From contig NZ_CP133265.1 in NCBI RefSeq assembly GCF_030915505.1, positions 1,736,001 to 1,800,000 of the forward strand: a stretch of 64,000 bases of DNA. The letters run 5' to 3'. The notes beneath the pieces were generated by a model. The model saw only the letters and a list, made by a program, of their open reading frames with translations. It made no database searches and was not told the origin of the DNA. Shown here piece by piece: positions 7,675-47,572 of this stretch; position 1 is the first letter of the stretch, and each line of letters starts with the position of its first letter. The DNA comes from Neobacillus sp. OS1-2 (lineage in GTDB: Bacteria > Bacillota > Bacilli > Bacillales > Cytobacillaceae). Made by a program: the position numbers and the translations under genes.

Positions 7675-7779
7675 TTTGCGAAAAAATGAAAATTATTTGC
7701 GAAACTTCACTGTTTGTTTGCGAAACAAGCGGTTTTATTTGCGAAACAACCCCATTTATTTGCGAAACCTCACTTAGGT
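7675..7779. repeat. 21-bp tandem array, unit TTTGCGAAAC
   Basis: TTTGCGAAA recurs at 7675, 7696, 7717, 7738 and 7759, every time 21 bp apart. The first 9-10 bp of each unit are conserved and the remaining 11 vary. A degenerate sixth copy may precede it near 7655. It sits between the speB terminator and the ywiB start, in or near the ywiB-argS promoter region. No coding potential or known regulatory family fits. Confidence 0.9.
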
Positions 7780-7826
7780 CCGCTACGCCATACTTTTTCT
7801 ATTATAAACATAGTCTCGGTGCAAAT

Positions 7827-7860
7827 CAAAAAATGCCCGCCCCTCAATGGGACAGGCATT
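7827..7860 (-). terminator. Terminator downstream of speB
   Basis: AATGCC...GGCATT arms, with inner CCC/GGG pairing, are followed on the minus strand by TTTTTTG. This ends the speE-speB transcript about 50 nt beyond the speB stop. Confidence 0.8.
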
Positions 7861-7890
7861 CCAACATACCTATTATAGGAATATTACAAA

Positions 7891-7905
7891 GGGTGACAGG
7901 CACCA
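7891..7905. repeat. Half-copy of the GGTGACAGGCACC repeat
   Basis: GGGTGACAGGCACCA matches one arm of the palindromes at 5121 and 14050. The partner arm is absent. It lies immediately after the speB stop codon. Confidence 0.7.
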
Positions 7906-7910
7906 ATTTC

Positions 7911-8783
7911 CTATTTTACCCAGCCCAACAGCATTTCGCGTAGTAGTTTGCTTGCGGTGTTGGCTGTTTGTTCGGATGGATCGTAGATGGGTGCTACTTC
8001 GACGAGGTCGCCGCCGACTACGTTCACTTCGGAACGGGCAATCGCATGGATTGAGGCGAGCAGCTCTTTCGACGTGATACCACCGCAATCAACTGTACCT
8101 GTTCCTGGAGCGTGCGCCGGGTCAAGGACGTCGATATCAATCGTGACATATACCGGACGGCCGGCGAGTGTTGGCAGGATTTCCTTTAATGGCTCCAACA
8201 CTTCAAATTTTGAAATATGCATGCCATTTTCTTTGGCCCACTGGAATTCTTCCTTCATTCCGGAACGAATCCCGAAGGAATAGACATTTTTCGGACCAAT
8301 ATGCTCAGCAATTTTACGAATCGGTGTCGAGTGTGACAACGGCTCGCCTTCATAATTTTCACGCAGGTCGGTATGCGCATCAAAGTGAATAATCGCTAAA
8401 TCCGGATATTTTTTAAAAACAGCTTTCATAACTGGCCATGATACGAGATGCTCCCCGCCCATCCCAAGCGGAAACTTACCAGCCGCAAGAATTTGATCGA
8501 CAAACTCCTCAATCAAATCAAGGCTGCGCTGCGCATTTCCGAACGGCAGCGGTATATCGCCGGCATCAAAGTATTTTACCTCTTCCAGTTCGCGGTCAAG
8601 GTAGGCACTGTACTCCTCAAGACCAATCGATACCTCGCGGATCCGCGCAGGACCAAAACGTGAACCCGGACGGTAGCTTACCGTCCAATCCATCGGCATT
8701 CCGTACAACACAACCTGACTTTCTTCAAAATTCGGGTGGCTCTTAATAAACACATTCCCCGAATAGGCCTCATCAAAACGCAT
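7911..8783 (-). CDS. speB: Agmatinase
   Basis: A 290-residue ureohydrolase that hydrolyses agmatine to putrescine and urea with a binuclear manganese centre. Metal-binding motifs are visible: GGEHLVSWPV, IIHFDAHTDLRENYEG, and DIDVLDPAHAPGTGT near the C-terminus. The frame extends to a GTG at 8798. The ATG at 8783 (MRFDEAYSG, as in B. subtilis SpeB) has a GAGGG site 8 nt upstream; an adjacent ATG lies at 8786. It follows speE on the same strand, so putrescine made here is the substrate of the neighbouring spermidine synthase. Confidence 0.97.
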   Translation of the reverse strand: MRFDEAYSGNVFIKSHPNFEESQVVLYGMPMDWTVSYRPGSRFGPARIREVSIGLEEYSAYLDRELEEVKYFDAGDIPLPFGNAQRSLDLIEEFVDQILAAGKFPLGMGGEHLVSWPVMKAVFKKYPDLAIIHFDAHTDLRENYEGEPLSHSTPIRKIAEHIGPKNVYSFGIRSGMKEEFQWAKENGMHISKFEVLEPLKEILPTLAGRPVYVTIDIDVLDPAHAPGTGTVDCGGITSKELLASIHAIARSEVNVVGGDLVEVAPIYDPSEQTANTASKLLREMLLGWVK

Positions 8784-8893
8784 CATTGCATCCCTCACAT
8801 TCTCTCTATTACCCTTTTCAAAATTGCATCATTGTGACCGTTCTCGCCGATTCCACCTAACTCCCGGCACAATTAATCTTACGTGTACCTAGT

Positions 8894-9721
8894 TTACTTC
8901 ACTAAATCCCCAACAAACTTCGGTAATACAAACGCCGCATTATGGAGTTCTTTGGTGTAATACTTTGTTTCAATTTCATGGAAACGGTCTTCCGCGACCG
9001 CTAATGGATCGTATTTTTTCGAACCGATTGTGAATGCCCATAATCCACTTGGATAGGTTGGAATATTGGCTACATACAAACGGGTAATTGGAAAGATTTC
9101 CTTCACATCGCGCTGCACATTACGAATTAAATCTGCTTTAAACCACGGATTGTCAGACTGGGCCACGAAAATGCCGTCCTCTTTCAATGCTTTTGAAATC
9201 CCCGCATAAAAGCCTTTTGTAAAAAGATTAACCGCAGGTCCAACCGGCTCCGTTGAATCAACCATAATCACATCATACTGATTATCGCTTTCCGCGATAT
9301 GCATGAAGCCATCGCCCACTTGCACTTCAACACGCTCATCCTCAAGCCAGCCAGCAATCTCAGGCAAAAATTTCTTTGAATACTCGATTACTTTCCCGTC
9401 AATATCCACAAGCGTCGCTTTTTTCACACTTGGGTGCTTCAACACCTCACGAATTACCCCGCCGTCGCCGCCGCCGACAACAAGAACATTCTCCGGATTT
9501 GGGTGCGTGAATAGCGGTACGTGTGCCACCATTTCATGGTAAACGAACTCATCCTTAACAGACGTCATTACCATGTCATCAAGTAAAAGCATGTTGCCCC
9601 ACTCTTCCGTCTCAATCATATCCAGTTTTTGAAATTCCGTTTGCTCTGTATGTAAGGTTTTATTTACTTTCATGGTAATTCCAAAATTTTCGGTTTGTTT
9701 TTCTGTAAACCAAATTGTCAT
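8894..9721 (-). CDS. speE: Spermidine synthase
   Basis: A 275-residue aminopropyltransferase that transfers the aminopropyl group of decarboxylated S-adenosylmethionine to putrescine. The nucleotide-binding loop is [14 protein letters not shown] (near residue 80) and the substrate site includes [15 protein letters not shown]. The frame extends to an upstream ATG at 9739, but GGAAGGAAG precedes the ATG at 9721 with good spacing, and [19 protein letters not shown] aligns with the usual SpeE N-terminus. It forms the polyamine pair with speB downstream. Confidence 0.97.
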
Positions 9722-9776
9722 CGTGCATCTTCCTTCCATCTTTATCTCATTTTCATTTCACTGAACTTTGACTACT

Positions 9777-9928
9777 GTCTGGCTCCAGCTCCCAGCGACT
9801 AGTGTATTGGCCCTCTCCTCCCTACGATAAGTCAACATCGAATCGCTTACGCTCTTCGTGTTTCCTTTATCTCAGTCGGAGCGGATCCAATCTTGTCGTG
9901 CGCTAAACGGTCGCTTCCGCTTTTCATT
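9777..9928 (-). repeat. Dispersed long imperfect repeat (AAGCGGAAGCG...GCTGGAGC family), copy 1
   Basis: The minus strand runs from AAAAGCGGAAGCGACCG to GCTGGAGCCAGACAGT and includes TGAGATAAAGGAAACACG and TTGACTTATCGTAGGGAG. The same blocks appear in the plus orientation at 12136-12284, so pbpG is bracketed by an inverted pair. It fills most of the 335-nt gap between speE and pbpG; nothing else was recognised there apart from a possible pbpG promoter in the AT-rich last 100 nt. Confidence 0.85.
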
Positions 9929-10056
9929 TTTATACTACCCAACCTATTGAAATACAACCAGAAAAAAAAGTCTAGCAAAATTTTTTAATTACGTTTAAAA
10001 AGACTCTATTTTTTCAATACTATTACTATCTATTTTTTTAAAAACTGGAAAAAAGC

Positions 10057-12135
10057 GTGGTGAATATAGTGGAAATCATGACTGATCAAGGGTTTCGGAA
10101 AACGGCTAAATATTTACGTGCGATTATTATCATCAGTTTGATAGGCATGATTTGTATGCTCATCCTTTTTCTTGGCATCCTTGGCTATGCCAAAATCCTA
10201 GGCGCGCCGCCGCTTGCGGTCCCGCAATCGACCCTGTTTTTCGCCGATGACGGCACCTTGATGGGCGAAAGTAATAGCGGGCAAAAGCGCTATTGGGTTG
10301 GACTTAAGGACATTTCACCAGATTTAGTGAATGCGACCGTCTCGATTGAGGATAAAAATTTTTACGAGCATCACGGGTTTGATTATAAACGCATTGCCGG
10401 AGCGGTCCTTGCCGATGTGAAGGCCTTCGCCAAGGTGCAAGGGGCAAGTACCATCACCCAGCAATACGCCCGAAACCTGTTTCTCGAACATGATAAAACC
10501 TGGAAACGAAAGCTGACAGAGGCGTTTTATACCATCCGCCTTGAAATGAGCTATTCGAAACAGGAAATTCTCGAAGGCTATATAAATACTATTTACTATG
10601 GAAAAGGTGCCTATGGTGTTGAGGCGGCAAGCCAATACTATTTTGGAAAAAAAGCAGCGGACTTAACCCTCGCTGAGGCTAGTATGCTCGCAGGGATTCC
10701 CAAGGGACCGGGCATTTATTCACCACTTGCTTCAATGGAGAAGGCCAAAACCCGTCAGGCCATTATTTTAAATAGTATGGTAAAAAACGGCTATATTAGC
10801 AAAAAGGCTGCGCAAACCGCTGTCGAAAAGCCGCTCACATTAGTAGGTGTTCATACGACACAAAAGGTAAGAGTAGCACCGTACTTTCAAGATGCTGTTA
10901 AAAATGCCCTGAAAAATCAATTACATTTGGATGACCGCACGATTGCCCTCGGCGGTTTAAAAGTTTTTACAACACTGAACTTAAAACAGCAGGAGGCCGC
11001 TGAAAGCCAGGTTCACAACTATGTGGACGACTCCTCGGAAATTCAGGTCGGCCTGGTAGCGATGGATCCAAAAAATGGCTACGTGAAAGCCATGGTGGGC
11101 GGCCGCGATTATGATAAAAGCCCATTTAACCGCTCCGTTCAGGCCATCAGACAGCCGGGCTCAACCATCAAACCCTTGCTGTATTACGCTGCCCTGGAGC
11201 AAGGCTTTACACCGTCATCGACGATGCGAAGCGAGTTTACGACCTTCCACTTTGACGATGGCCAGGCCGATTATACACCGCATAACTTTAACAACAAATA
11301 TGCCGACGCTGAGGTGACTCTTGCCCAAGCACTTGCCGTTTCTGACAATATTTTTGCCGTCAAGACACATTTATTTTTAGGGGAAGAAGCGTTAATTGAT
11401 ACAGCGAAGCGATTTGGTCTTTCTACCAAAATGGCCAAGGTTCCGTCGCTGGCACTCGGCACTTCCGGTGTGCGCGTGATTGAAATGGCGGGTGCCTACA
11501 GCTTACTCGCTAACGGCGGGAAACAGGTCAACCCGACATTGATTACCAGAGTGGAAGACTATAATGGGAATGTTATTTTTGAAAAAGAAAATGCCATGAA
11601 AAAGGTGTTGGACCCGGCGAAGGCGTTTGTGATGACGCAAATGCTGACAGGGGTCTTCGACTCGAAGTTAAATGGCTATGCCAAGGTGACCGGGAGCACG
11701 GTAAGCAAGGATCTTACTCGGCCATATGCCGGAAAATCAGGCTCCACGGAAACGGACAGCTGGATGATTGGCTATTCGCCGCAGCTGGTAACCGCGGTCT
11801 GGGCGGGCTATGATATTGGAAAACCACTTGAAGTGACAGCGGAAAAAACCTACGCGAAAAATGTGTGGGCGGGCTTTATGGAGGAGGCCTTGCAGGGGAA
11901 ACCCGTCAAGGCGTTTAAACCGCCGAAAGACGGTGTTGTCGGTGTTTACGTGAATCCGGCAAATGGCAAATTGGCAACAAAGGACTGCCCCGTCCGCCGC
12001 TATACCTATTATGTCGCCGGCACTGAACCCACCGAATATTGCACCGACCACTTAATGAATATCAATCCATCCCCGGCAAAGCACCGGGAGTCTAAAAAAG
12101 TCCCTTGGTATAAAAAAATTATGCCGTGGAGCTAG
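10057..12135 (+). CDS. pbpG: Class A penicillin-binding protein (PBP2D/PbpG type)
   Basis: A bifunctional glycosyltransferase/transpeptidase for peptidoglycan, anchored by one N-terminal membrane helix (about residues 22-45). The glycosyltransferase domain shows EDKNFYEHHGFD and GASTITQQYARNL. The transpeptidase domain shows the SxxK serine in RQPGSTIKPL, the SxN-type SDN in LAVSDNIFA and KSGST near residue 560. Its place next to speE and ywhD matches B. subtilis pbpG, a forespore-expressed enzyme. The start is ambiguous among GTG 10057, GTG 10060 and ATG 10078, with no strong ribosome site. An inverted pair of dispersed repeats flanks the gene. Confidence 0.93.
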   Translation: MVNIVEIMTDQGFRKTAKYLRAIIIISLIGMICMLILFLGILGYAKILGAPPLAVPQSTLFFADDGTLMGESNSGQKRYWVGLKDISPDLVNATVSIEDKNFYEHHGFDYKRIAGAVLADVKAFAKVQGASTITQQYARNLFLEHDKTWKRKLTEAFYTIRLEMSYSKQEILEGYINTIYYGKGAYGVEAASQYYFGKKAADLTLAEASMLAGIPKGPGIYSPLASMEKAKTRQAIILNSMVKNGYISKKAAQTAVEKPLTLVGVHTTQKVRVAPYFQDAVKNALKNQLHLDDRTIALGGLKVFTTLNLKQQEAAESQVHNYVDDSSEIQVGLVAMDPKNGYVKAMVGGRDYDKSPFNRSVQAIRQPGSTIKPLLYYAALEQGFTPSSTMRSEFTTFHFDDGQADYTPHNFNNKYADAEVTLAQALAVSDNIFAVKTHLFLGEEALIDTAKRFGLSTKMAKVPSLALGTSGVRVIEMAGAYSLLANGGKQVNPTLITRVEDYNGNVIFEKENAMKKVLDPAKAFVMTQMLTGVFDSKLNGYAKVTGSTVSKDLTRPYAGKSGSTETDSWMIGYSPQLVTAVWAGYDIGKPLEVTAEKTYAKNVWAGFMEEALQGKPVKAFKPPKDGVVGVYVNPANGKLATKDCPVRRYTYYVAGTEPTEYCTDHLMNINPSPAKHRESKKVPWYKKIMPWS

Positions 12136-12284
12136 AAAAGCGTAAGCGTCCGTTTAGCGGCGTATAGACTGGAGCGCTTCGACTGAGATAAAGGAAACAC
12201 GGAGAGCGCCAGCGCATCCGTGCTTGACTTATCGTAGGGAGAAGAGCGAAGTCTACTAGCTGCTGGGCGCTGGAGCTAGACAAT
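12136..12284 (+). repeat. Dispersed long imperfect repeat, copy 2
   Basis: It begins GAAAAGCGTAAGCGTCC just after the pbpG stop and ends GGCGCTGGAGCTAGACA. It shares GAGATAAAGGAAACACG and TTGACTTATCGTAGGGAG with the inverted copy at 9777-9928. The ends are partly self-complementary, so the RNA can fold into a long hairpin. Confidence 0.85.
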
Positions 12285-12308
12285 TCTCAACGTCAAAACT
12301 TCAAAAAT

Positions 12309-19115: not shown

Positions 19116-20090
19116 TTATAACCCTTGCGCTGCGGTAATTAACGCAAGCTTGTACACATCTTCTTCATTACAGCCGCGGGACAGATCGTTCACCGGTGCG
19201 TTCAACCCTTGTAAAATCGGGCCCACTGCCTCAAATCCACCTAAGCGCTGGGCAATTTTATACCCGATGTTGCCGGCTTCAAGGCTTGGGAAAATAAACA
19301 CGTTTGCATCGCCTTGCAGTACAGAACCCGGTGCCTTACTTTTTGCCACCGATGGAACAAATGCAGCGTCGAACTGGAATTCACCGTCCAATACAAGCGA
19401 AGCATCACGGCGTTTTGCCTCTGCCACCGCTTCGACGACTCTTTCCGTCTCAGGTGATTTTGCTGAGCCCTTCGTGGAAAAACTCAACATCGCGATCCGC
19501 GGCTCAATATCAAACATCTCTGCAGTCTTCGCACTTTCAATCGCGATTTCCGCTAAATCATTGCTGTCCGGTGCAATATTGATGGCACAGTCGGCAAACA
19601 CATATTTTTCATCCTCACGAACCATGATAAAGACGCCGGACGTTTTCTTCACGCCAGCTTTCGTTTTAATAATTTGCAAGGCCGGGCGAACCGTATCAGC
19701 CGTTGAATGGGCTGCGCCGCTCACCAAACCATGTGCTTTATTTAAATACACTAGCATCGTGCCAAAATAGTTTTCGTCAAGCAAGATTTTGCGGGCATCC
19801 TCTTCCGTTGCCTTCCCTTTACGGCGCTCAACAAACGCTGCAACCATTTCATCCATTCCAGCATAACTGGCAGGATCATAGATTTCCGCTGCTTCCAGGG
19901 AAACACCAACCTCCGCAGCTTTCGCCTGTACTTTTTCAATATTACCAATCAATATCGGCGTGATTAATCTTTCCGCAGCCAAGCGGCCTGCCGCACGGAC
20001 AATTCGCTCGTCCAATCCTTCTGGAAAAACAATTCTTACATCACGTCCGGAAATTTTCTGTTTTAACCCTTCAAATAAATCACTCACCAT
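19116..20090 (-). CDS. pta: Phosphate acetyltransferase
   Basis: A 324-residue enzyme converting acetyl-CoA and phosphate to acetyl phosphate and CoA in overflow metabolism. Conserved pieces are GLDERIVRAAGRLA, GLVSGAAHSTADTVRPALQ, FADCAINIAPD, MLSFSTKGSAKSPE, DGEFQFDAAFVP and GNIGYKIAQRLGGF. The length is that of the short, single-domain Pta. The ATG at 20090 is preceded by AAGGGAGG. It lies between lipL and the divergent hemQ, as in B. subtilis. Confidence 0.97.
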   Translation of the reverse strand: MVSDLFEGLKQKISGRDVRIVFPEGLDERIVRAAGRLAAERLITPILIGNIEKVQAKAAEVGVSLEAAEIYDPASYAGMDEMVAAFVERRKGKATEEDARKILLDENYFGTMLVYLNKAHGLVSGAAHSTADTVRPALQIIKTKAGVKKTSGVFIMVREDEKYVFADCAINIAPDSNDLAEIAIESAKTAEMFDIEPRIAMLSFSTKGSAKSPETERVVEAVAEAKRRDASLVLDGEFQFDAAFVPSVAKSKAPGSVLQGDANVFIFPSLEAGNIGYKIAQRLGGFEAVGPILQGLNAPVNDLSRGCNEEDVYKLALITAAQGL

Positions 20091-25311: not shown

Positions 25312-25368
25312 CTATATGTGACCCCTTTCGAAAGAAAACCCGCCGATTGGCGAGCCTTTAGGGTATTT

Positions 25369-25521
25369 TGTGACCATCAGCATCAAATTTTCACTTTTTT
25401 GGGCACAATAAACTTTTTTTGTGACCGTTCTACTCGTCATTTTGCTTTATTGGTAACAATAAATCCTTTTTGTGACTGTCAGCCCCAATTTTCCGCTACT
25501 TCGGTAACAATAACCCGCACA
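25369..25521. repeat. 51-bp tandem array, unit TTTGTGACC...GGTAACAATAA
   Basis: TGTGAC recurs at 25369, 25420 and 25471 with exactly 51 bp spacing. Each unit opens with TTTGTGACC and closes with GGTAACAATAA (GGGCACAATAA in the first). The opening TTGTGACC and closing GGTAACAA are inverted repeats matching 7 of 8. It fills the gap between moaD and moeB. Confidence 0.85.
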
Positions 25522-30092: not shown

Positions 30093-30902
30093 TTAATTTG
30101 TCAGTTTTTTTTCGCCTAGCGAGTTATAACCGTTATCCTGTGCTACAAAATCAAGATGGATGGAATTTAAATCTAGTAATGCTACTGACGGTTTCGAGAT
30201 ATATTGTCTCGTATCTATAATTTTAATATAGCCCTTACATTCTTCGCAAACTTGAATTTGCGAGGTGGCATCGCCTTCAACGGTTAAAAACTGGATTGTC
30301 TTATGGTCTTCATTGCCGCAATGAGAACATTCCAAGCGCTTGGCATGCCAATTAGCATGGCAGCGAGGACAATGAATAGCTTTTTTCCCCTCTTCTTCAA
30401 GCGTGGCCAACCGGGCGGGCTCGCCGCAAACAGGGCAGCCAGCCCCCGGAGCGGCATGGTTAATCATCGGCTGGACCTTTTCAGCTGTTAACTGTAAGTA
30501 TGGGCGAAGGGCGGTCTCTGCCAGGAATTGCGGGATCCATTCTTCGAGGCCGTGCTCTTCGGCAAAACTGGTAAAATACACTTCGTTAAACGAAAAGGCT
30601 TCGTCAATCCAGCGGATCGCTGTTTCCTCGTTAAGAAGGCTCGCAATACAAGACAATTTCGCCTCGAGATCGGGAATGAGTGTTACTAGTGTGGTATTTA
30701 TTTCGTCTATCCACTGTACGAATAGGGAAATGTCAAAATCAATAGCCGCTAACGCGGCAGCCGGCACTCCTGCTTGCATCGCAGCCTTATCAAAATTTGG
30801 TCTTATGGTTTCCGGATCTATCTGAAGCTTCCACTGTTCTTGAAGCTTGATGATTCCTTTTTGCAGTTCTTGATATTCTTTTGAAACAACGGATTTGATC
30901 AT
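30093..30902 (-). CDS. fdhE: Formate dehydrogenase accessory protein FdhE
   Basis: A 269-residue zinc/iron-binding chaperone with four CxxC knuckles in the C-terminal half: CPVCGEPA, CPRCHANW, CSHCGNEDH and CEECKGY, the FdhE rubredoxin-like pattern. In enterobacteria FdhE is needed for maturation of respiratory formate dehydrogenases. ATG 30902 (MIKSVVSKEYQ) has GAGGTG 8 nt upstream; the frame extends to GTG 30911. A 21-bp repeat array and a hairpin lie between it and fdhC. Confidence 0.92.
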   Translation of the reverse strand: MIKSVVSKEYQELQKGIIKLQEQWKLQIDPETIRPNFDKAAMQAGVPAAALAAIDFDISLFVQWIDEINTTLVTLIPDLEAKLSCIASLLNEETAIRWIDEAFSFNEVYFTSFAEEHGLEEWIPQFLAETALRPYLQLTAEKVQPMINHAAPGAGCPVCGEPARLATLEEEGKKAIHCPRCHANWHAKRLECSHCGNEDHKTIQFLTVEGDATSQIQVCEECKGYIKIIDTRQYISKPSVALLDLNSIHLDFVAQDNGYNSLGEKKLTN

Positions 30903-30934
30903 CGTTGTCACACCTCATTTTTTGATATTTTTTG

Positions 30935-31018
30935 ATTCGCTCATTGACTGCTTAAATTCGCTCGTTGAAACGATTGATTCGCTCATTGACTGCCTAAATT
31001 CGCTCATTGACCCCAAAA
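30935..31018. repeat. 21-bp tandem array, unit ATTCGCTCATTGA
   Basis: ATTCGCTC starts at 30935, 30956, 30977 and 30998, exactly 21 bp apart. ATTCGCTC(A/G)TTGA is conserved (13 bp) and the last 8 bp vary. A degenerate fifth copy (ATTCATGATCAGCACC) may follow. It lies immediately upstream of fdhE and downstream of fdhC. It is unrelated in sequence to the 21-bp array at 7675. Confidence 0.9.
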
Positions 31019-31844: not shown

Positions 31845-32664
31845 GGCCGCCACCTCCATTTTCGTCCTCGTCATTCGCTTTTTTACTAAAAAACTTATTG
31901 GCAACAAATGCGCCGACAACTGCCATGGTGGTTGCCCCAATCATGGCCTTGCCGATTGGCTGGGCATAGTCTTTCCAGACAACGGCTGATGTTGGCACTT
32001 TAGGGTTTTCAGGCAAACCATATACAGATGGCCGCTCTGCTAATACATAAATTGTATGTGTACCGCCAACACCTTGCGGATTATACACTTGAGCATTTGG
32101 ATAACGGCCCTTGATTTCCTTCACACGCTGTTCTGCCTTTTTGATCATCGCATCTTGGTCGCCAAACTCCATTGCGCCAGTATGACAAGTCGTTACGCAG
32201 GCTGGCTGTAAGCCCTCGTCGATTCGGTCGGTACACATGGTGCACTTATGCGCCTTGCGATACTCTTTTCCGTTCTTATCCTTATATTCCTTCAAGGAAA
32301 TTACCTCAAACGGACAGTTCTGCACGCAATAGCCGCAGCCTACGCAGGTATCTTGATCAATGACAACCGTTCCATACTTCGTATAGCTGATGGCATTTTC
32401 CGGACACACCTTTTCACAGGCGGCATCTGTACAATGGAAGCAGGAGGAATGGCGGAAAAGGTATTCTAAATCACCTTTTCCATTCTCGTGTTCAATAAAC
32501 TGAAGAACATTCCATGTATCCGCTGTTGTTTTCGCATGTGATTGGACACTGCCAAGGAAATCTGTCGGCTCTGCCGGGAGATCATTCCAGTTTTTACAGG
32601 CGACCATACACGCGCGGCAGCCATCGCACTTTGTTACATCGACATATTTTACATACTTACTCAT
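31837..32664 (-). CDS. fdhB: Formate dehydrogenase iron-sulfur subunit (beta)
   Basis: 275 residues with four 4Fe-4S motifs: CDGCRACMVACKNW, CFHCTDAACEKVCP, CVGCGYCVQNCPF and CTMCTDRIDEGLQPACVTTC. A C-terminal membrane anchor (GATTMAVVGAFVANKFF) follows, as in FdnH/FdoH. It carries electrons from the catalytic subunit to the cytochrome. The start ATG overlaps the fdhA stop by 4 nt and the gene overlaps fdhC, so the three subunits are translationally coupled. Confidence 0.97.
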   Translation of the reverse strand: MSKYVKYVDVTKCDGCRACMVACKNWNDLPAEPTDFLGSVQSHAKTTADTWNVLQFIEHENGKGDLEYLFRHSSCFHCTDAACEKVCPENAISYTKYGTVVIDQDTCVGCGYCVQNCPFEVISLKEYKDKNGKEYRKAHKCTMCTDRIDEGLQPACVTTCHTGAMEFGDQDAMIKKAEQRVKEIKGRYPNAQVYNPQGVGGTHTIYVLAERPSVYGLPENPKVPTSAVVWKDYAQPIGKAMIGATTMAVVGAFVANKFFSKKANDEDENGGGGHE

Positions 32665-35651
32665 ACGTCAGCCCTCCTAACGTTACAGAGGAATGCTTTA
32701 TATTCAGGAATCATCGTATTCGCATCCCCAATATGTGGAGTCAGACGGTTGGCTGTATCCCCAGTGGCAAAGCCTTTATAGCCAAAATGCCATGGCATTC
32801 CGATTTGGTGCACTTTTTTGCCTCTTACTGTAAATGGCTTATAGCGTTTCGTGACCATTGCATAGGCCTTGATTTCGCCGCGTGCCGAGCTGACAATGAT
32901 TTTGTCTTTATTCTTGATGCCTTTTTCTTTTGCGAGATCTTCACTTAATTCCACAAACATATGACCAGCAAGCTCTGAAAGCCATTCTTGGTTTCTTGTC
33001 ATCGAGCCGGACTGCCAGTGTTCACTTAAACGGTAGGTTGTGGCCACGATCGGATAGTCCACCTTGAAACCCTTTTTATTAAAGTCTCCTTCCATAATCA
33101 CAGTTGCCGGGTTCATTTCCTGTCCAGAGAAAGCATTTGGAACAGGGCTTTCAAATGGCTCATAGTGTTCTGGGAACGGTCCGTCGTTTAAAGTTGGTGC
33201 AAACAATAATGCCACACCGTCTTTATTCATCATAAAGGCACCCGTACCACCGGGTTCAGTTGGTGCAGTTACGGCCTTAAAGTCTGGGACATCATTACCA
33301 ACCCATTTCTTCTGGGCATCATCCCACCAAATAACAGCCTTATCCTTGCTCCATGGCTTGCCGCTTGGATCGGCAGAGGCACGGTTATAAAGAATGCGGC
33401 GGTTCATTGGCCATGCATAGGACCAGTTCAAATAATGCTCGCCGCCTAGATCCTTGTTATCACGGTTCTTCGATTTATTTTTGCCTTCTTCAGGATAGAA
33501 ACCAGAATAAATCCAGTTACCGCTTGACGTCGAACCGTCATCTAATAGGGCCCCAAAACCGGAGATTAGTTTACCTGTTTTCAAATCGTAGCCATTGATT
33601 TCTTTGGCCACAAGATCAATATCCGGTTCTGCTCCGGTACCGTAATTCCAATCAAGCGCTAAGAATGGTCGATCCGCTGATTTTGGACTGTTGGCGTATA
33701 GTTTTTTCAGTTTTAAGGCAAGTTCATGGATGATATCGAGATCGGGTCTTGCTTCGCCTCTGGAATCAATTGCCTTCCAGCGGTATTGCATCCAGCGTGA
33801 GCTGTTGGAAATACTGCCTTCCTTTTCAAAAGAAGCACTCGCTGGCAGTAGGAATACTTCCGTATTAATCTTCGCTGGATCACTGCCGGCTTCTTTTTGC
33901 CAGAATGCCGATGTTTCTGTCTCCCAAAGATCAATCGCTACCATCCATTTCAGTTTTCCAAGAGCCTCTTTTTCCTTACCAGCGTTCGGACCGCCGACAA
34001 CCGGGTTTGTTCCAAACAGGAAGGTGCCATCAAGCCCACCATCGTACATCGCTTTAAAGAGATTGATATGGGAATAGTTTTTATTTCCCTTTGGTAAAAA
34101 TTGATAGCCAAATTCATTTTCGGCTGTAGCATTTGCGCCATACCAAGATTTCAGCAAGCTGACAACGAATTTTGGTTTATTGCTCCAATACCCTGTTTTT
34201 GGCGTTTCTTTTTCCAAATAGCCTTTAAGGGTGGCATGCTCCGGAACCGTAGCTTTTGGTGCACCCAGGTAGCCTGTTAGGTTATCGAATAATAAACCAA
34301 AGTCTGTTGAGCCTTGCACATTGGATTCACCGCGCATGGCATTGATGCCGCCGCCTGGGATTCCGATATTTCCTAACAACAGCTGCAGGATGGCATAAAT
34401 ACGGACGTTTTGGGAACCGACTGTATGCTGGGTTGTTCCCATTGCATACATGATGGTACCGGACTTTCCAACCTTACCTGTTTCACAGAATGTTTTACAA
34501 ACCTTTAGATAGTCTTCCTGTGCTGTTCCAGTCACCGTGGTAACTGTTTTTACATCATAACGGGAATAGTGCTTTTTCATTAATTGGAACACGGAACGCG
34601 GATGCTCCAAGGATTCATCGACGACAGGCTTGCCATCTTCCGTTGTTTCAAGCGCCCATTTAGTTTTATCGTATGCTCGTTTCGCTTCGTCATAGCCTGA
34701 GAAAAGACCATCATTAAAGTCATAGCCTTCTTTCACAATAAAGGAAGCGTTTGTATATTTAGCCACATACTCCTTGTGGACGAGATTGTTTTCAAGCGCA
34801 TAATTAATCATTCCGCCGATAAACGGGATATCCGTACCGGAGCGGAGTGCTGCGTAAACGTCAGCTTGTGCCGATGTTCTAGTAAACCGCGGGTCAACGG
34901 ACACAATTTTGCCGCCGTTTTCCCTTGCTTTTGTCAACCATCTAAAGCTGATTGGATGGTTTTCCGCAGGGTTTGCGCCGATAATCAACGCACAATCGGT
35001 ATGCTGCAGATCATTCCAATGGTTAGTCATTGCTCCACGACCAAATGTAGGTGCCAGACCGGCAACCGTTGAACTATGTCATATTCGTGCCTGGTGCTCT
35101 AAGTAGGTGACACCAAGCCCTCTCATTAGTTTCGCGAGCAAATACGTTTCTTCATTATCAAGTGCTGCGCCGCCTAAGCTGGCAATTCTCTCTGTTTTAT
35201 TAACGGTAATGCCGTTTTCTACTTCAACAAATGATTTGTCACGTGTTTCTTTTGTACGCTTGGCAATGGTATCAAGCATCCATTCCCAATCCTTTTCCTC
35301 CCACTTATTGCTTCCAGGAGCACGGTAAAGCGGTTTTGTTAAGCGTTTTTCTGAGGTGTACAACTGTCTTAGTGTTGTACCCTTACTGCATAGCTTTCCT
35401 TCGTTAATTGGATTATCCGGATCCCCTTCCGTATAAACCACGGTATTGTCTTTGGTGTGGACAAGGATTCCACATCCGACACCACAGTAGCAGCAAATGG
35501 TTGGTGTTACAGTAGATTTGGCAATTTTAAATTCTTTTGTTTTCGCATAGGCCTTTTTCTCGTTAAAACCAAGTTCGACAACTGCAAGCGTTGCGGCAGT
35601 AGCGCCCGATAGTTTTAAAAATTGCCGGCGATTTAAGTTCATTTCAACCAT
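32661..35651 (-). CDS. fdhA: Selenocysteine-containing formate dehydrogenase catalytic subunit
   Basis: Read through one in-frame TGA (35081-35079) the gene gives 996 residues with Sec191 in the context [28 protein letters not shown], the exact site of Sec in E. coli FdnG/FdhF. The N-terminus has a Tat signal (NRRQFLKLSGATAATL). It is followed by the 4Fe-4S motif ICCYCGVGCGI...GKLCSKG and the molybdopterin domains. ATG 35651 is chosen for AAGGAG 7 nt upstream. The enzyme oxidises formate to CO2 at a Mo- or W-bis-MGD site, probably on the outer membrane face. Without recoding it would be misannotated as two genes (stop at 35079; restart near 35030). Confidence 0.95.
35050..35067 (-). promoter_or_regulatory. 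SECIS element for selenocysteine insertion in fdhA
   Basis: The RNA reads GGUUGCCGGUCUGGCACC, starting 11 nt after the UGA. Pairing GGU/ACC and GCC/GGC leaves one bulged U and a GGUCU loop. The E. coli fdhF SECIS apical hairpin (GGUUGCAGGUCUGCACC, also 11 nt after UGA) has the same bulged U and loop, the contacts of SelB. This supports true recoding rather than a nonsense mutation. Confidence 0.93.
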
Positions 35652-35715
35652 CACTATTCTCCTTCCCAAGAATATAGATTAGAACATCCCTTTTTCTCTA
35701 TCTAAATCTGCAAGT

Positions 35716-39058: not shown

Positions 39059-39183
39059 AAGCCCTCCGCTTTCGGGTGCATACTTATTAATAAAAGACAC
39101 AAGAATTGACGTATGAATTGGCATACGTCTTATTCTTTTTTTATTAAATTTTCTCAGGTTAAGCACTCGAGCTGATCAATAGA

Positions 39184-39370
39184 CGGAAAAATTCCGCCTA
39201 ATTGGTTATTTTTATTAAATAGGGCCTAAATAGGCGGAGAGATTCCGCCTATTTACTCGAAAGATGCGAAAATGGGAGATTTTACTTTGTATAGTCGGAA
39301 AACCTCCCCTTATTTACCCCGAAACGAGCGCCATTCTGCATTTAACCGAAAAATCTCCGTTTATTTTACT
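39184..39370. repeat. 51-bp array of CGGA...TTCCGCCTATTT palindromes
   Basis: Units start (CGGA-like) at 39184, 39235, 39296 and 39347: spacings 51, 61 and 51 bp. The second unit holds the perfect palindrome AAATAGGCGGA/TCCGCCTATTT; the others are degenerate. It occupies the 397-nt gap between the convergent ends of bshB2 and the Fnr-like gene; nothing else was recognised there. Confidence 0.8.
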
Positions 39371-39455
39371 TCCTAATGAATCTCTAATCGCCCCTAACCT
39401 CGCTGTCCTCATGAACGGCTTCCCGTCTTAAGGGCCATTTGAACCTCTTTTTACA

Positions 39456-43602: not shown

Positions 43603-44939
43603 AAAAATTAACGCTCCTATCTTTGATTTTTTCACTTCTTATACTGATAAAACCTGAAAAAATGATGGCAGCCGAAAACCTGCAAGCGATGATCGACTCC
43701 ATGAAAGAGGGAGCGGTAATAAAGCTTGAGAATAAAACGTACGAGGGCAATATCGTCATTACCAAACCACTGACGATTATTGGCTCAGATAAAACCGTGA
43801 TCAAAGGGGACGGCAGCGGAAACGTGATTTCTGTTAAAGCACCAAATGTGAAGTTAAACAAGTTGACCGTGACGTATAGCAGCATGAACCGGAACTCTTC
43901 TGAAGAATATGCCGCTATCAAGATTTATACCAACAACAATACAATCGAACACATCCGGATCCGCCATTCCTTTCACGGAATTTATTTAAGCCAGGCTCAC
44001 AAAAATATCATTCGCTATAACGATATTAAAGGGCTTGGAAAAGGAGAAATCGCCGCACAAGGCAATGGGATTCACGTTTTTTACGCCAACGATAATTTAT
44101 TGTCCCATAACACCGTTGAAGGCACACGGGACGGGATGTTCTTTGACTATGCCAATCGGAATAAAAGCTATGATAATAACATCACCAATACTAGATATGG
44201 CCTGCATTACATGTACTCCGACAAAAATATTTTCAAACGAAATGTCTTTACCATGAACACGGGCGGTGCCGCCGTCATGAACTCGAACCATCTGAAACTA
44301 GAGAACAACCAATTTATCATTAACTACGGAAATCAATCGTTTGGCTTACTGCTACTGCAGGCCAACGATAATTATATAGCGAACAACACCTTTTACATGA
44401 ACCAGCGCGGTCTCTACATCGACCAGGCTACAAGAAACACGATTAAAGATAACCGCATTGTCCAAAACCAGATCGGCGTAGAGCTGTGGGCGAGCTCCAA
44501 CGACCAAACATTTACATTAAATAAGATTTCTGAAAATACGATTCCGGCCGTTACCCTCGGCGGTAAGGGGGAACGTAACGCCTGGAGCCAGCATGGCATG
44601 GGCAATGACTGGGGCGCCTCGTTCCCGCTGACCGACTTAAATCAAAACGGCATCGGTGACTTCCCGGTTACCTATCATTCTTCCCTTCATCAGTTGATTG
44701 AAGATCAAGAATTAACAAGCCTTTTTTTAAAAAGCCCTGCCATCACGATCTATGAAAAAATAAATGCGACACTTACTAACGATGAAGTCATGTTTAATGA
44801 TCCACACCCGCTGGCAGCGGCCAAAAAGAGACACACTGGGATTCTACTCGTGGTCCTTGGGCTCATCGCAGGCTTGATTTTACTAAAAGGGAGACATCAA
44901 CTATGCATTACATTTGGAAGGAATGGAAGGAAAACATAA
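43599..44939 (+). CDS. nosD: NosD copper-site maturation protein
   Basis: About 446 residues. A signal peptide is followed by a right-handed parallel beta-helix of CASH repeats, seen as repeated segments such as YNDIKGLGKGE, NGIHVFYANDNLLSHN, GMFFDYANRNKSYDNNI, YGLHYMYSDKNIFKRN and GLYIDQATRNTIKDN. A C-terminal membrane helix (GILLVVLGLIAGLILL) anchors it. NosD works with NosF and NosY to build the CuZ centre. ATG 43599 (MKKLTLLSLIF) overlaps the nosB stop as ATGA; the frame extends to 43578. Its 3' end overlaps nosY. Confidence 0.94.
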   Translation: MKKLTLLSLIFSLLILIKPEKMMAAENLQAMIDSMKEGAVIKLENKTYEGNIVITKPLTIIGSDKTVIKGDGSGNVISVKAPNVKLNKLTVTYSSMNRNSSEEYAAIKIYTNNNTIEHIRIRHSFHGIYLSQAHKNIIRYNDIKGLGKGEIAAQGNGIHVFYANDNLLSHNTVEGTRDGMFFDYANRNKSYDNNITNTRYGLHYMYSDKNIFKRNVFTMNTGGAAVMNSNHLKLENNQFIINYGNQSFGLLLLQANDNYIANNTFYMNQRGLYIDQATRNTIKDNRIVQNQIGVELWASSNDQTFTLNKISENTIPAVTLGGKGERNAWSQHGMGNDWGASFPLTDLNQNGIGDFPVTYHSSLHQLIEDQELTSLFLKSPAITIYEKINATLTNDEVMFNDPHPLAAAKKRHTGILLVVLGLIAGLILLKGRHQLCITFGRNGRKT

Positions 44940-45700
44940 GAGGAAAAGGACTTTGGCTGTCGTTAAGCATCATTGTTCTGATTTCAATCAGCATTTTGTT
45001 TCGTTCCTCTGTCCTTTCATTTGATAAAGGCTTTTATGTGCTCTTAATCAATTTATTTGATACGATTATTTATTTTATCCCGATCCTGTGCCTGTTTATC
45101 GGCGCCTTCTCCATCTTTCAGGAAAAAGAACAAAAGACACTCATTATGCTGTTAACGAAAAAAGACAATTATGCCAGTTTTTTAGTGCGAAAAAGTGCTG
45201 GGCTCTATATCGTCGTTCTCGTTCCGCTGCTGATTTGGTTCTTCTTGTATCTATTATTGTTAAAATTCAATTTTGGGATAGATTTCAAAGGTTATATGAT
45301 CTTTGTAGCAGCGATTGTTTGTTTGAGCATGGTCTTCCTGCAAATGGGGGCCGCGATTGGCAGCTTTAGCCGCTCACGGATGCAGATTATTGGCTACACG
45401 ATTTTTGTCTGGTTTTACTTTTTCTTTTTACATGATTTTATTTTGCTATCCTTTTTACCGGACGTCACCCACGAAAATGTCAGGCTCTTTTCATCAGCCT
45501 ACTTTTTAAACCCGCTCCAAGCCGTACGAATGTTTTTAGAAACCGGCATGGGCGTGTATTCCTTCGGTCATATGTCTAGACTGCTAGAAAAGTTCATGTG
45601 GACGAAGCCTGTATTCTTTTTACTGGGAAATCTGTTGATCTGGCTTGCGGTTTCCTTTGGCACAGCGATTGTCTTCAACCGTAAGGAGGGATACGAATGA
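44903..45700 (+). CDS. nosY: NosY ABC transporter permease
   Basis: 265 residues with six membrane helices of the NosY/ABC-2 type: WLSLSIIVLISISILF, YFIPILCLFIGAFSIF, LYIVVLVPLLIWFFLYLLLL, GYMIFVAAIVCLSMVFL, YTIFVWFYFFFLHDFI and LLGNLLIWLAVSFGTAIVF. With NosF it forms the transporter that energises NosD-dependent CuZ assembly. The start overlaps the nosD end by 37 nt and GGGAG lies 9 nt upstream. nosF begins before its stop codon. Confidence 0.94.
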   Translation: MHYIWKEWKENIRGKGLWLSLSIIVLISISILFRSSVLSFDKGFYVLLINLFDTIIYFIPILCLFIGAFSIFQEKEQKTLIMLLTKKDNYASFLVRKSAGLYIVVLVPLLIWFFLYLLLLKFNFGIDFKGYMIFVAAIVCLSMVFLQMGAAIGSFSRSRMQIIGYTIFVWFYFFFLHDFILLSFLPDVTHENVRLFSSAYFLNPLQAVRMFLETGMGVYSFGHMSRLLEKFMWTKPVFFLLGNLLIWLAVSFGTAIVFNRKEGYE

Positions 45701-46374
45701 TTAAAGTGACGGGCTTAAACCAATCCTTTGGAAGAAAAACAGTCCTGGATGGGGTCACGGTTGAGATTGGGCGCCATGAAATTTGCGCACTTGTCGGCCG
45801 CAATGGTGCCGGTAAATCGACATTTATTAATAGTCTCTTAGGCTTATTGCCTGTGAAGCAAGGAGCAATTGCCATTAACGGCATAGAAGTTTCCAAGAAA
45901 AATAATGAATGGAAAAAGGCGATTGCCTATTTGCCCGAAAAATTTATGCTTTATCCGATGCTCACCGGCTTAGAGAATATGACCTTTTTTGCGGAGGCTG
46001 TTTCTGGTGCATCAGATTTACCGCGGATTGAACAGGTATTGCGATCAGTCAGCCTTTGGGATGACCGCGGTGTGCAGGTAAAGTCGTATTCAAAGGGGAT
46101 GCTGCAGCGTTTGGGGCTTGCCATTACTCTATATCAGGATTCCAGTATTTTGATTTTGGATGAACCGACAAGCGGGATTGACCCGCTGGGAAGGAAGGAA
46201 ATCCTTGAGGTATTACGGTCGCTCCATGATAAAACGATCCTGCTTTCCTCGCACCACCTCGATGAAATTCGGCAGATTTGCACACACGTCGTCTTTTTAG
46301 ATGAGGGGAAAATGGAAAAATTCACAGTGAAAGACTTTTTAGAAACACATCATTTAGGGGGAATTGAGTCATGA
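45697..46374 (+). CDS. nosF: NosF ABC transporter ATPase
   Basis: A 225-residue ABC ATPase with Walker A GRNGAGKST (about residues 35-43), signature YSKGMLQRLGLA (near 130), Walker B ILILDEPTSGIDP and the switch His in LSSHHLDEI. It partners NosY and NosD in copper-site maturation of NosZ. The start overlaps nosY by 4 nt and its stop overlaps the next gene by 4 nt, so nosDYF and the lipoprotein gene are translationally coupled. Confidence 0.95.
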   Translation: MIKVTGLNQSFGRKTVLDGVTVEIGRHEICALVGRNGAGKSTFINSLLGLLPVKQGAIAINGIEVSKKNNEWKKAIAYLPEKFMLYPMLTGLENMTFFAEAVSGASDLPRIEQVLRSVSLWDDRGVQVKSYSKGMLQRLGLAITLYQDSSILILDEPTSGIDPLGRKEILEVLRSLHDKTILLSSHHLDEIRQICTHVVFLDEGKMEKFTVKDFLETHHLGGIES

Positions 46375-47276
46375 AGAAACGACTGATGTTCGCCTTGCTG
46401 CTGGTAATCGCAATGCTTGCCGGCTGTGGGTCCGGGCCTGACTATACAGTGAAAGTGACGAAGGAACTTTTTTACCAAAAGGATGCGGCAGTGCCGTTTG
46501 AAATAAAAGTAACCGAGGGGAAAAAGGCTGTAAAAGGGCTTGAGGTTTCCGCAGCATTCTCCATGGCCAATATGGACCACGGGACAACCGAAGTGAAATT
46601 AGCCGATGAAAAGAAGGACGGAACTTACTCCGGTGAGGTGGCGCTGCCGATGAGCGGTAAATATGAGGTAGCCTTTACATTGGAGAAGGACGGGAAGAAA
46701 TCCGAGGAAGTCATTGACATCAACGTCGTGAAGGCCAAGGGTGTCGCAAAATTAAACGGTGAATGGATTACGAATGAGGATGTTTCTTTTTATAAGTTGA
46801 TTAATCAGCTGCAGTTTGCAATTTCTCGGGAAACAGCTCAGAAAAAATACAGCGGTGCGCAATTAGAGGAAGAACTAGCCTATTTAGAGTCCCAGGAAAA
46901 GCTCATCGATGATAAAAATCAATTAGTCACGCAGATTATCCGCCTGCGCTCGATGGCGATGCTGGCAGAGGAGAAGGGTCACAAAGCGGATGCCGGAGAA
47001 GTGGATGCAGCCTTGGGGAAAGTACGCGACCAATATAATGGGTATGCATCCGCTGGAAAGTTGATTCGAGACTATGGCGAAGAGAAGTTCTGGTCAACGG
47101 AAAAACAGCAATACGAGATGATTGTTCTCGCACAAAAGGTGCAACAGGATTTAGTTGCTCAAGTAAAAAAGGAAAATCCAACAATGGCTGAACAGGAAGT
47201 CTACTTCCAGGCGCAAAAAAAATACGAGGAACTCCTCGTCTCCCAAGTAAACTCCTTAAAGATAGAAATTCTTTAG
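46371..47276 (+). CDS. Lipoprotein with YtkA-like and SurA-like domains, last gene of nos operon
   Basis: 301 residues. The signal peptide ends with lipobox MLAGC (Cys about 19). Residues about 25-120 look like a YtkA-like beta-sandwich, with AFSMANMDHGTTEVKLADE, DGTYSGEVALPMSGKYEVAF as its two hallmark strands. Residues about 125-301 are helical and resemble the N-terminal domain of SurA/PrsA-type chaperones (KLNGEWITNEDVSFYKLINQ, AMLAEEKGHKADAGEV). The Met/His-rich MANMDHG could bind copper. No nosL is present; this protein may replace it as copper chaperone or fold NosZ on the outer face (inference). ATGA overlap with nosF. Confidence 0.8.
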   Translation: MKKRLMFALLLVIAMLAGCGSGPDYTVKVTKELFYQKDAAVPFEIKVTEGKKAVKGLEVSAAFSMANMDHGTTEVKLADEKKDGTYSGEVALPMSGKYEVAFTLEKDGKKSEEVIDINVVKAKGVAKLNGEWITNEDVSFYKLINQLQFAISRETAQKKYSGAQLEEELAYLESQEKLIDDKNQLVTQIIRLRSMAMLAEEKGHKADAGEVDAALGKVRDQYNGYASAGKLIRDYGEEKFWSTEKQQYEMIVLAQKVQQDLVAQVKKENPTMAEQEVYFQAQKKYEELLVSQVNSLKIEIL

Positions 47277-47312
47277 GGAGTTTCTTGGCTTTCCAGGTAC
47301 ATCCGCGTTCGT

Positions 47313-47572
47313 GACGGACTATTCCCTTGCCTTTTCTCCCCGATTAGTCCTTCATCGACCTTATGACGGACTAATCCTTTGCCTTTTCTCCTCGATTTGT
47401 CCTTCACCGACCTTATGATGGACTAATCCCTTGCCTTTTCTCCTCGATTAGTCCTTCACCGACCTTATGAAGGACTAATCCTTTGCCTTTTCTCCTCGAT
47501 TAGTCCTTCATCGACCTTATGACGGACTAATCCCTTGCCTTTTCTCCTCGATTAGTCCTTCATCGACCTTAA
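47313..47572. repeat. 52-bp tandem array, unit GGACTAATC...GATTAGTCC
   Basis: Units begin (GACGGACTA-like) at 47313, 47365, 47417, 47469 and 47521, every 52 bp. Each carries inverted 9-bp arms GGACTAATC and GATTAGTCC separated by 17 bp, with another 17 bp to the next unit, so alternately inverted arms fall about every 26 bp. Only a few substitutions separate the copies. It fills the 304-nt gap between two convergent genes; no terminator of the usual form was seen there. Confidence 0.93.

Follow-up and report, generated by a model that had tools for sequence, protein, structure and literature searches.

Repeat families are usually recognized by their sequence. In the 64-kb window (the whole stretch of DNA analysed), the tandem arrays have a spacing in common instead, and the question that this locus raises is what keeps this spacing when the repeated word changes. 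A preliminary description of the window listed five arrays and a two-copy remnant with periods close to two or five turns of B-DNA, and proposed either a duplication mechanism with a preferred step or selection for same-face protein binding or DNA shape. All six features are real and are found again in the sequence:

Remnant, 54..85, minus strand: two units 21 bp apart, CTATCCGGCAG and CTATCCGACAG, with CTATCCG at 54 and 75.
Array A, 7672..7776, minus strand: five units of 21 bp, with conserved TTRTTTGCGAAA and the rest variable; word TTTCGCAAATAAA on the minus strand.
Array B, 25364..25514 (also placed at 25368), no strand assigned: three units of 51 bp, each TTTTGTGACY, a variable middle and ACAATAA.
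Array C, 30935..31018, plus strand: four units of 21 bp; word ATTCGCTCRTTGA.
Array D, 39154..39371, plus strand: 218-bp dispersed element with four CGGA..TCCG-like palindromes at 39184, 39235, 39296 and 39347, spaced by 51, 61 and 51 bp.
Array E, 47312..47571, plus strand: five units of 52 bp with 93% matches; palindrome GGACTAATC..GATTAGTCC.

The remnant is located just downstream of an acetyl-CoA C-acetyltransferase gene (108-1304, minus strand), and the matching junction of N. bataviensis (L069) contains five ACTGTCGGATAA-type units with the same word. Array A, which is lacking in N. bataviensis, is located upstream of both argS and a DUF1934 gene (7200-7619) that we take to be ywiB, and by eye lies between a TATAAT-like -10 sequence and the start. 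Array C is located 24 bp upstream of an FdhE-like ORF (30093-30911, minus strand), and array E is flanked by the convergent ORFs 46371-47276 (plus strand) and 47581-48471 (minus strand).

Periods of non-coding arrays

In the non-coding DNA of an 864-kb part of the genome, a lag-score finder detects 21 arrays, as compared with none in one shuffle of that DNA. Eight have a period of 20-21 bp, eight have a period of 51-52 bp, and the other five have periods of 109 and 118 bp (tRNA gene pairs by eye) and, once each, 39, 103 and 111 bp. Array A escaped the finder, being hidden under a spurious ORF. When 80 loci of relatives are included, most non-coding tandem arrays have a period of 20-21 bp, 51-52 bp or multiples of these, and 16 of the 110 arrays of the relatives have other periods. 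The tRNA pairs and the coding repeats of 18-45 bp at one locus (L011) were excluded as unrelated.

In the lag spectrum, which counts loci of this genome and 80 relatives (mean shuffled counts in brackets), the two-turn region has 31 loci at lag 20 (1.0), 65 at lag 21 (1.7) and 11 at lag 22 (2.0). The multiples of 21 have 48 at 42 (2.0), 34 at 63 (0.7) and 24 at 84 (1.0), and the off-multiple neighbours have 4 at 43 (2.3) and 1 at 64 (2.0). The five-turn region has 23 at 51 (1.3) and 35 at 52 (2.0), and its multiples have 22 at 104 (0.3) and 11 at 156 (0.7). Thus, the peaks at 21 and 51-52 bp expected from the preliminary description are present in the genome-wide sample and in the relatives. 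A ladder of single turns is rejected, because no comparable peak is seen at 10-11, 73 or 94, only the two- and five-turn steps being prominent, and because the peak at lag 31 comes largely from one orthologous operator-like pair. From E. coli K-12, analysed as a control, the same finder returns only tRNA genes and REP-like arrays, the latter read as 91-98 bp, in a small sample of 25 kb of non-coding DNA as compared with 125.7 and 270.8 kb in the surveys.

Units of the TTCGC-anchored arrays

This genome has TTCGC-anchored 21-bp arrays at about 20 loci. Their unit consists of a conserved core of about 13 bp and a near-random spacer of about 8 bp: in 18 arrays, the first 13 positions, which contain the TTCGC by which these arrays were picked, have an internal identity of 0.92, as compared with 0.32 for five mid-spacer positions. 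In the 864 kb, which were not chosen for arrays, all 24 pairs of neighbouring words at most 41 bp apart are exactly 21 bp apart, and none is 20 or 22 bp apart. Genome-wide, when the gaps of TTCGC triplets are left free between 8 and 26, 50 of the 60 triplets span 47 bp (21+21) and none span 45, 46, 48 or 49 bp, while the reversed pattern gives 3 matches. The non-coding DNA has 10 indels per 106 substitutions. One array (L173) is a higher-order 42-bp repeat.

The preliminary description held that spacing is shared but sequence is not. Within this genome, this holds only in part, because the units are not all private: identical words are found at many loci with unrelated spacers, and the likeness of words across loci is above chance (the observed value is equalled or exceeded in 2 of 500 permutations), with 16 of the 20 within-genome array pairs having no common word. 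Between species, the spacing is retained under different words. At the thiolase operon junction, 17 genomes have arrays of either class with about a dozen words (compared by eye), and 17 of the 19 significant signals belong to the 20-21 or 51-52 bp class. The same-locus comparison reveals one gene junction at which spacing is kept and the word differs between species.

The reversed control of the four-copy TTCGC pattern matches 7 of 193 genomes of the family, and coding repeats may account for part of the forward matches in them. A viral origin is rejected: among the viral matches listed, which come from at least 120 viral stretches, 188 of the 195 four-copy TTCGC matches are in coding sequence, and the 7 non-coding ones have other words.

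Proposed explanation of the spacing

The best explanation, to which we give an even chance, is that the arrays are rows of putative double-stranded-DNA sites for one or more candidate sequence-specific proteins, set two or five helical turns apart. The candidate readers would work best when adjacent sites are on one face of the helix. The two-turn step, 20-21 bp, would be represented by direct repeats of an asymmetric word of about 13 bp, and the five-turn step, 51-52 bp, by units that are often palindromes. Selection for cooperative binding on one face would maintain the spacing, the words would differ because the specificity of the reader drifts and the sites follow, and copy number would change by recombination or slippage between units. 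Of the two mechanisms in the preliminary description, same-face selection would be the likelier, since a duplication step by itself accounts less well for mid-spacers that are near random beside 24 word spacings that are all exactly 21 bp. The scarcity of arrays between divergent genes and the indifference of the TTCGC arrays to strand also favour the protein-site explanation. Against it weigh the arrays with other periods, the within-genome pairs without a common word, the loss of window arrays in a same-species genome, the like rates of change in core and spacer, the prominence of two- and five-turn steps only and, by eye, a distance between the arms of the palindrome that differs from array to array in the 52-bp class.

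Turnover within the species

In a genome of the same species (G041), two of the five arrays of the window, A and B, are absent and two others differ by whole units. The locus of array B has 46 bp in place of 207 bp, array C has five units, the difference being one exact 21-bp indel, and array E has one unit instead of five. Therefore, at least arrays A and B are dispensable. Length differs in four of the nine orthologous array pairs that were aligned, each time by a multiple of 21, and G041 lacks a tenth array (L174). Substitutions between the two genomes number 8/495 in the core, 5/305 in the spacer and 85/3849 in the flank, the flank letters of the tenth array, which is not alignable in the core and spacer comparison, being counted in the flank total. 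By eye, the core changes are mostly swaps to letters present in other units. Over such short times the core rate is similar to the spacer rate, and therefore purifying selection is not visible at the same-species scale and a neutral or selfish repeat process may account for the arrays.

Such a process would make the arrays satellites without host function, which a replication or recombination process of Bacillaceae copies in steps of about 21 or 52 bp, which sit where insertions are least harmful, and which grow, shrink, vanish and get replaced. We regard this as somewhat unlikely. The exact unit-length gains and losses, the one versus five units of array E, the arrays absent from the same-species genome, the equal short-term rates of core and spacer, and higher-order repeats such as that of array L173 are all consistent with it, as is an avoidance of divergent gene pairs similar to that reported for REPs (PMC3733652). 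Copying of whole units would, however, duplicate the spacers as well, yet the mid-spacers are far less alike than the cores; the lack of spacings of 20 or 22 bp, and the return of identical words, with unrelated spacers, across many loci of a single genome, also argue against it. Array E, with its high identity, fits a simple tandem repeat or VNTR, in which the spacer is repeated too, whereas the mid-spacers of the 18 TTCGC arrays do not.

Gene context, strand and stems

Between genes, as defined by script-made ORF calls and not by annotation, 120 of the 131 arrays could be placed, 100 in the two classes and 20 with other periods. The arrays are mostly located between same-direction or convergent genes. 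Those of the two classes lie between divergent genes in 6 of 100 cases, as compared with 29% of 1,154 intergenic regions; the corresponding counts are 5 of 20 for the other periods and 4 of 64 for the TTCGC arrays. The TTCGC arrays show no strand preference, with 21 sense and 15 antisense among 36 same-direction cases (p 0.41). Two coding-like words, and arrays whose flanking ORFs were short or missing, were left out of this TTCGC sample, in which the 21-bp spacing is given by construction because the arrays were picked by the four-copy pattern; the context and strand counts are unaffected by this selection.

The location between same-direction or convergent genes is also consistent with elements that act in RNA, as hairpins or as sites for RNA-binding proteins in 3' ends, leaders and operon joints that tune decay or termination. 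One array lies in a leader by eye, many lie in the thiolase operon joint, where by eye the words have a single orientation in several species, and the 52-bp units are often palindromic, a stem score of at least 9 being reached by 11 of 32 in this class as compared with 1 of 50 in the 21-bp class. We consider an RNA-level role unlikely, however, because the TTCGC arrays occur in both orientations, the 21-bp class has little excess of stems (score 6.3 versus 5.6 when shuffled), whole helical turns have no reason in RNA, and a search of Rfam gives no family at the gathering threshold at any array of the window.

REP-like elements, dispersed elements and curved DNA

REPs are palindromes of 20-40 bp (PMC3733652) linked to RAYTs. 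REP/BIME elements are short intergenic repeats, often clustered at regular spacing, mainly between convergent or same-direction genes, and BIMEs are reported to bind gyrase and IHF (PMC2817692 and PMC3733652). The present arrays resemble those of enterobacteria and pseudomonads in being extragenic and between such gene pairs, and REPs are reported to be similarly scarce between divergent genes (PMC3733652). It is nevertheless highly improbable that a Y1 (RAYT) transposase has spread the arrays as REP/BIME-like elements, an origin to which the tandem, intergenic, convergent location (PMC3733652), the palindromes of part of the 52-bp class and the detection of Y1_Tnp in 58 of 61 Neobacillus genomes would point. 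This origin is rejected because Y1_Tnp does not co-occur with the arrays: it gives no hit in the array-rich genomes G047 (60 TTCGC matches) and G036 (22), and is present in G003 and other genomes that lack TTCGC arrays. In addition, the 21-bp class is not palindromic, several words are used per genome and vary by species, and the finder reads REP-like arrays of E. coli at neither 21 nor 52 bp.

The claim of the preliminary description that the units are not one dispersed family fails for array D, a dispersed repeat of 218 bp to which the same-species genome has 14 further matches. Among the CGGA..TCCG palindromes, 27 spacings fall at 50-52 and 10 at 60-62, but a helical-phase test without 50-53 is not significant (p 0.23). 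In being dispersed, element D resembles bcr1 and other MITE-like intergenic repeats of the Bacillus cereus group, bcr1 itself being classed as a MITE, a group with terminal inverted repeats (PMC3733652), whereas none of arrays A, B, C and E represents a longer sequence present in dispersed copies.

It is very unlikely that A-tracts phased every two turns bend the DNA and that selection acts on this shape and not on a bound protein. The predicted curvature of the 21-bp arrays exceeds that of shuffled DNA (mean z 1.3, 34% above 2), but the excess drops to a mean z of 0.41, with 6% above 2, when columns are shuffled and the period is kept; the 52-bp class has a mean z of 0.43. The DNA-shape part of the earlier proposal is not favoured, because any 21-bp periodicity would by itself produce most of the curvature that is predicted.

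Comparison with known systems

Plasmid iterons are direct repeats that have a conserved core and a step of about two helical turns, are bound by the replication initiator, and mark one origin beside the rep gene, whereas the TTCGC words alone are present at about 20 chromosomal loci. CRISPR arrays have repeats of 24-48 bp, unique spacers and nearby cas genes, whereas the present units have cores of about 13 bp and spacers of about 8 bp at about 20 loci. Mycobacteriophage stoperators are many asymmetric sites of one sequence-specific repressor across the genome that halt transcription elongation (PMC9283540); in contrast, the present arrays are chromosomal and tandem at 21 bp, show no strand preference in the 36 same-direction cases, and have a putative reader. 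The TAACTGA direct repeats of Beggiatoaceae are abundant and intergenic, of unproven role, and have one seven-letter word (PMC4679880), whereas many words, a preferred spacing and variable spacers are found here. The open-access literature of PubMed Central yielded no description of these arrays or of a mutation process with 21- or 52-bp steps.

Implications

The cellular role of the proposed protein sites might be local chromosome packing, or the blocking or insulation of transcription within operons and beyond the ends of genes. More tentatively, the arrays may possibly belong to a genome-wide phased-site system of Bacillaceae in which only the geometry is conserved and the word drifts between species, with lineage-specific, fast-changing putative proteins reading a chromosome-organising or transcription-insulating code whose sites are rewritten with their specificity. 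Since the shared feature is the spacing, sequence-based repeat catalogues would split this system into unrelated fragments. If no protein reads the arrays, they would represent a mutation process of Bacillaceae that favours steps of 21 and 52 bp. If a protein does read them, they would constitute a chromosome-wide site system with a quickly evolving word and a fixed geometry, and thus a bacterial setting for the co-evolution of a protein and its sites.

Arrays in the window

The arrays and the gene next to the remnant are as follows.

7672: array A, 21 bp, five units
25368: array B, 51 bp, three units
30935: array C, 21 bp, four units
39184: element D, spacing 51, 61 and 51 bp
47312: array E, 52 bp, five units
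54: two-copy remnant
108-1304: acetyl-CoA C-acetyltransferase (thiolase) gene

All five arrays are located within a few bases of the sites claimed for them in the preliminary description and have the claimed spacings, and the remnant is confirmed as CTATCCG occurring twice with 21 bp between copies. Tandem Repeats Finder picks up A, C and E and misses B and D, the copies of the latter two being less alike. The window covers positions 1,736,001-1,800,000 of the host genome, a single contig of 4.73 Mb. Judged by the speB locus, the named species nearest to it are Neobacillus bataviensis, N. novalis and N. cucumis. Elsewhere in the window, an Rfam SECIS_3 match is found at 35026-35084 on the minus strand. 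Two ORFs, 32661-35030 and 35079-35669, make up the formate dehydrogenase alpha gene there, an interruption consistent with a candidate selenocysteine UGA.

Period distribution and gene context

The peaks expected genome-wide at 21 and 51-52 bp are present in an 864-kb sample of the genome (40 stretches of 20 kb from all over the genome, and the window; 125.7 kb non-coding). When at least 12 of 14 letters are required to match, the non-coding DNA of this sample gives 23 matches at lag 21 (1.2 in shuffled DNA), 11 at lag 42 (0), 8 at lag 63 (0.6), 12 at lag 51 (0.6) and 8 at lag 52 (0.2). The array finder detects 21 arrays in the 864 kb and 0 in shuffled DNA, eight at 20-21 bp, eight at 51-52 bp and five at other periods, two of the five being tRNA pairs as judged by eye. 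Around speB, 80 loci no longer than 21 kb, taken from named Bacillaceae and relatives, yield 110 arrays with this finder against 1 in shuffled DNA: 42 at 20-21 bp, 14 at 40-42, 24 at 51-53, 14 at higher multiples and 16 at other periods. Arrays at 20-21 or 40-42 bp occur at 36 of these loci, arrays at 51-53 bp at 18, and either at 43. When each locus is scored once, the following comb is obtained, with lesser excesses also at 12, 13, 31 and 39.

Table. Comb of lags (lag:count) in this genome and the 80 loci, each locus scored once
20:31, 21:65, 22:11, 41:25, 42:48, 43:4, 62:14, 63:34, 64:1
51:23, 52:35, 104:22, 156:11

The same finder, applied to 200 kb of E. coli K-12 as a control, yields one tRNA pair; the other three arrays that it detects, of 91-98 bp, we take to be REP/BIME sequence.

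Between genes, 120 of the 131 arrays can be placed, 100 of the two classes and their multiples and 20 of other periods. The 100 lie between same-direction, convergent and divergent genes in 61, 33 and 6 cases, compared with 52%, 19% and 29% of 1,154 intergenic regions taken as background; 5 of the 20 lie between divergent genes. Sixty-four arrays built on the word TTCGC in five Neobacillus genomes divide, in the same order, into 36, 24 and 4. The word is sense in 21 and antisense in 15 of these 36 same-direction cases (p 0.41), a result that favours a signal residing in double-stranded DNA.

Anatomy and turnover of the 21-bp class

Three copies of TTCGC spaced by 21 bp (at most one mismatch) match 64 times in this genome, a few of these being coding repeats, against 2 matches of the reversed pattern. 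When the gaps are free to vary from 8 to 26, the reversed pattern gives 3 matches against 60 TTCGC triplets; 50 of these are 47 bp long (21+21) and ten have other lengths, with none at 45, 46, 48 or 49. In stretches not picked for arrays, all 24 pairs of adjacent words at most 41 bp apart are at exactly 21 bp, and one pair is at 42. Across 18 arrays with 84 units, identity is 92% at the first 13 positions (the core) versus 32% at five mid-spacer positions. Non-coding DNA of this genome and of a same-species genome differs by 10 indels per 106 substitutions. Spacers made this divergent by ordinary mutation should often differ in length, yet they do not, and we infer that the spacing is kept by selection or that the spacers arise otherwise than by point mutation.

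The comparison of copy number in a close relative, as proposed in the preliminary description, was made with the same-species genome G041, which is 98% identical around the window. A and B are gone there (33 bp in place of 153 bp, and 46 bp in place of 207 bp), C counts five units rather than four, E a single unit rather than five, and D is kept, with substitutions only. Ten TTCGC arrays, C among them, were chosen for this comparison and nine are alignable. Length differences of 21, 42, 63 and 21 bp separate four of the nine from their G041 counterparts, and no single-base indel is found inside the nine. The tenth (L174, G000:C1:1684284) is missing from G041 (L197, G041:C118). These unit-length changes and array losses are accounted for by the main rival explanation, a satellite-like process with preferred steps, but such a process fails on near-random spacers beside constant cores. 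Substitutions against G041 (core 8/495, spacer 5/305, flank 85/3,849) speak against the core being under strong selection in the short term; core changes mostly swap letters present in other units, as judged by eye.

Two further observations were made in G041. An TTCGCYGATAGA array lies about 500 bp from the missing L174 site. A 121-bp stretch, window 12151-12271, is lacking and has an GGAGCTAGA motif close to each edge; it looks like a further mobile or repeat unit.

Words, palindromes and element D

The claim that the arrays share no sequence does not hold for TTCGC, a word repeated every 21 bp at about 20 loci of this genome, nor for D, a 218-bp dispersed repeat. Four copies of TTCGC at 21 bp occur in 35 of 61 Neobacillus genomes and, in the family, in 66 of 193 genomes and 12 of 25 genera (reversed control, 7 of 193). 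When 398 genomes from across the phylum are sampled, a stricter three-copy pattern turns up in 2 of the 3 that belong to the family and in none of the other 395. The letters following TTCGC tend toward genus-typical ones by eye; the chief ones are AAAYAAA and TCATTGA in this genome, TGATAGA and CAATAGA in genome G006, CGATAGA and TAATAGA in G002, and AAATAAA and GAGTAAA in G001. Many arrays of other genera are built on words without TTCGC. Cores at different loci of one genome resemble each other more than expected by chance (the mean over 20 pairs is reached in 2 of 500 permutations), with clearly one word in only four of the 20 pairs. Because cores are thus partly shared, each genome seems to hold a small vocabulary of words.

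Units of the 51-52 class are frequently palindromic (best stem score 7.7 versus 5.5 shuffled; 11 of 32 at 9 or more), the scores of the 21-bp class being 6.3 versus 5.6, with 1 of 50 at 9 or more. By eye, unit length is constant while arm distance varies among arrays. D differs in kind from the other 51-52 arrays: it has 14 further matches in G041 (74-84% identity) and copies in own-genome stretches L020 and L046, with a layout alike by eye. Its 51/61/51 spacing belongs to the pattern of CGGA..TCCG palindromes, whose spacings peak at 50-52 (27) and, one turn more, at 60-62 (10), counts that include the copies of D and are to that extent not independent. Separately, GGTGCCTGTCACC-type palindromes occur in arrays of periods 34, 39 and 48 (locus L035 at 10962; L070 and L072 near speB), a family of their own that may be REP-like.

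One junction, many words

The thiolase junction was located in 57 relatives and is readable through in 53. The thiolase gene of N. bataviensis is followed by a codirectional gene for 3-hydroxybutyryl-CoA dehydrogenase. A lag signal counts as significant when no more than 1 of 60 shuffles equals it; nineteen of the 53 junctions have one, at lags 21 (8), 40 (1), 41 (2), 42 (4), 51 (1), 52 (1), 14 (1) and 25 (1); the other 34 have none, many being too short to hold an array. Among the words are ACTGTCGGATAA, ATAGCCAAAA, TAGACAAAA, AGTCCAAAA, TGTCCAAAA, TGTACAAAA, TCGGCCAAA, TCAGCCAAA, TTCGCAAACA, TTGGCGAAATAA, TTTGCGGATA and ACTGGCGGATA, several of them 1-2 letters apart, and units agree inside most arrays. 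At this junction the spacing holds across species and the word does not, with 17 of 19 signals in the two classes and many words. The remnant at 54 has the same word as N. bataviensis here. At locus L073 (about 19193-19400), two words, TAGACAAAA and TGTTCAAAA, alternate with a 41-bp double period. N. bataviensis lacks array A in the leader of the DUF1934 gene and argS; in N. mesonae and N. kokaensis this leader contains ATTAGCGAA-like units at 21 bp. The thiolase junction, which carries 21-bp arrays in many Neobacillus, has TTGTACCAGGTACAA-like palindromes in Rossellomorea and a relative (L089, L090, L092, L095).

Origin and possible function

DNA curvature as the explanation, RAYT transposases as the source, viral origin (among the viral matches listed) and known RNA families at the arrays are all unsupported. 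Two Y1_Tnp genes (G000:C1:1291036 and 1574760), of a type present in most Neobacillus genomes, are seemingly resident transposase-like genes.

According to a survey covering 7,006 genomes, the majority of periodic repeats still need investigation, and interspaced ones besides CRISPRs and tRNA operons are yet to be explored (PMC6344855). Arrays of this kind were not found described in open-access text. For every known class compared, the arrays lack one or more of the features that define it, although D may be a MITE. Rows of protein-binding sites are in themselves a familiar idea; fixed spacing with a free word is without counterpart in the open-access text searched. The conserved core, free spacer, preferred two- or five-turn step, freedom of orientation and words that change together suggest that the arrays are rows of sites for putative sequence-specific proteins, whose binding and role are likewise putative and whose neighbours would have to lie on one face of the helix.
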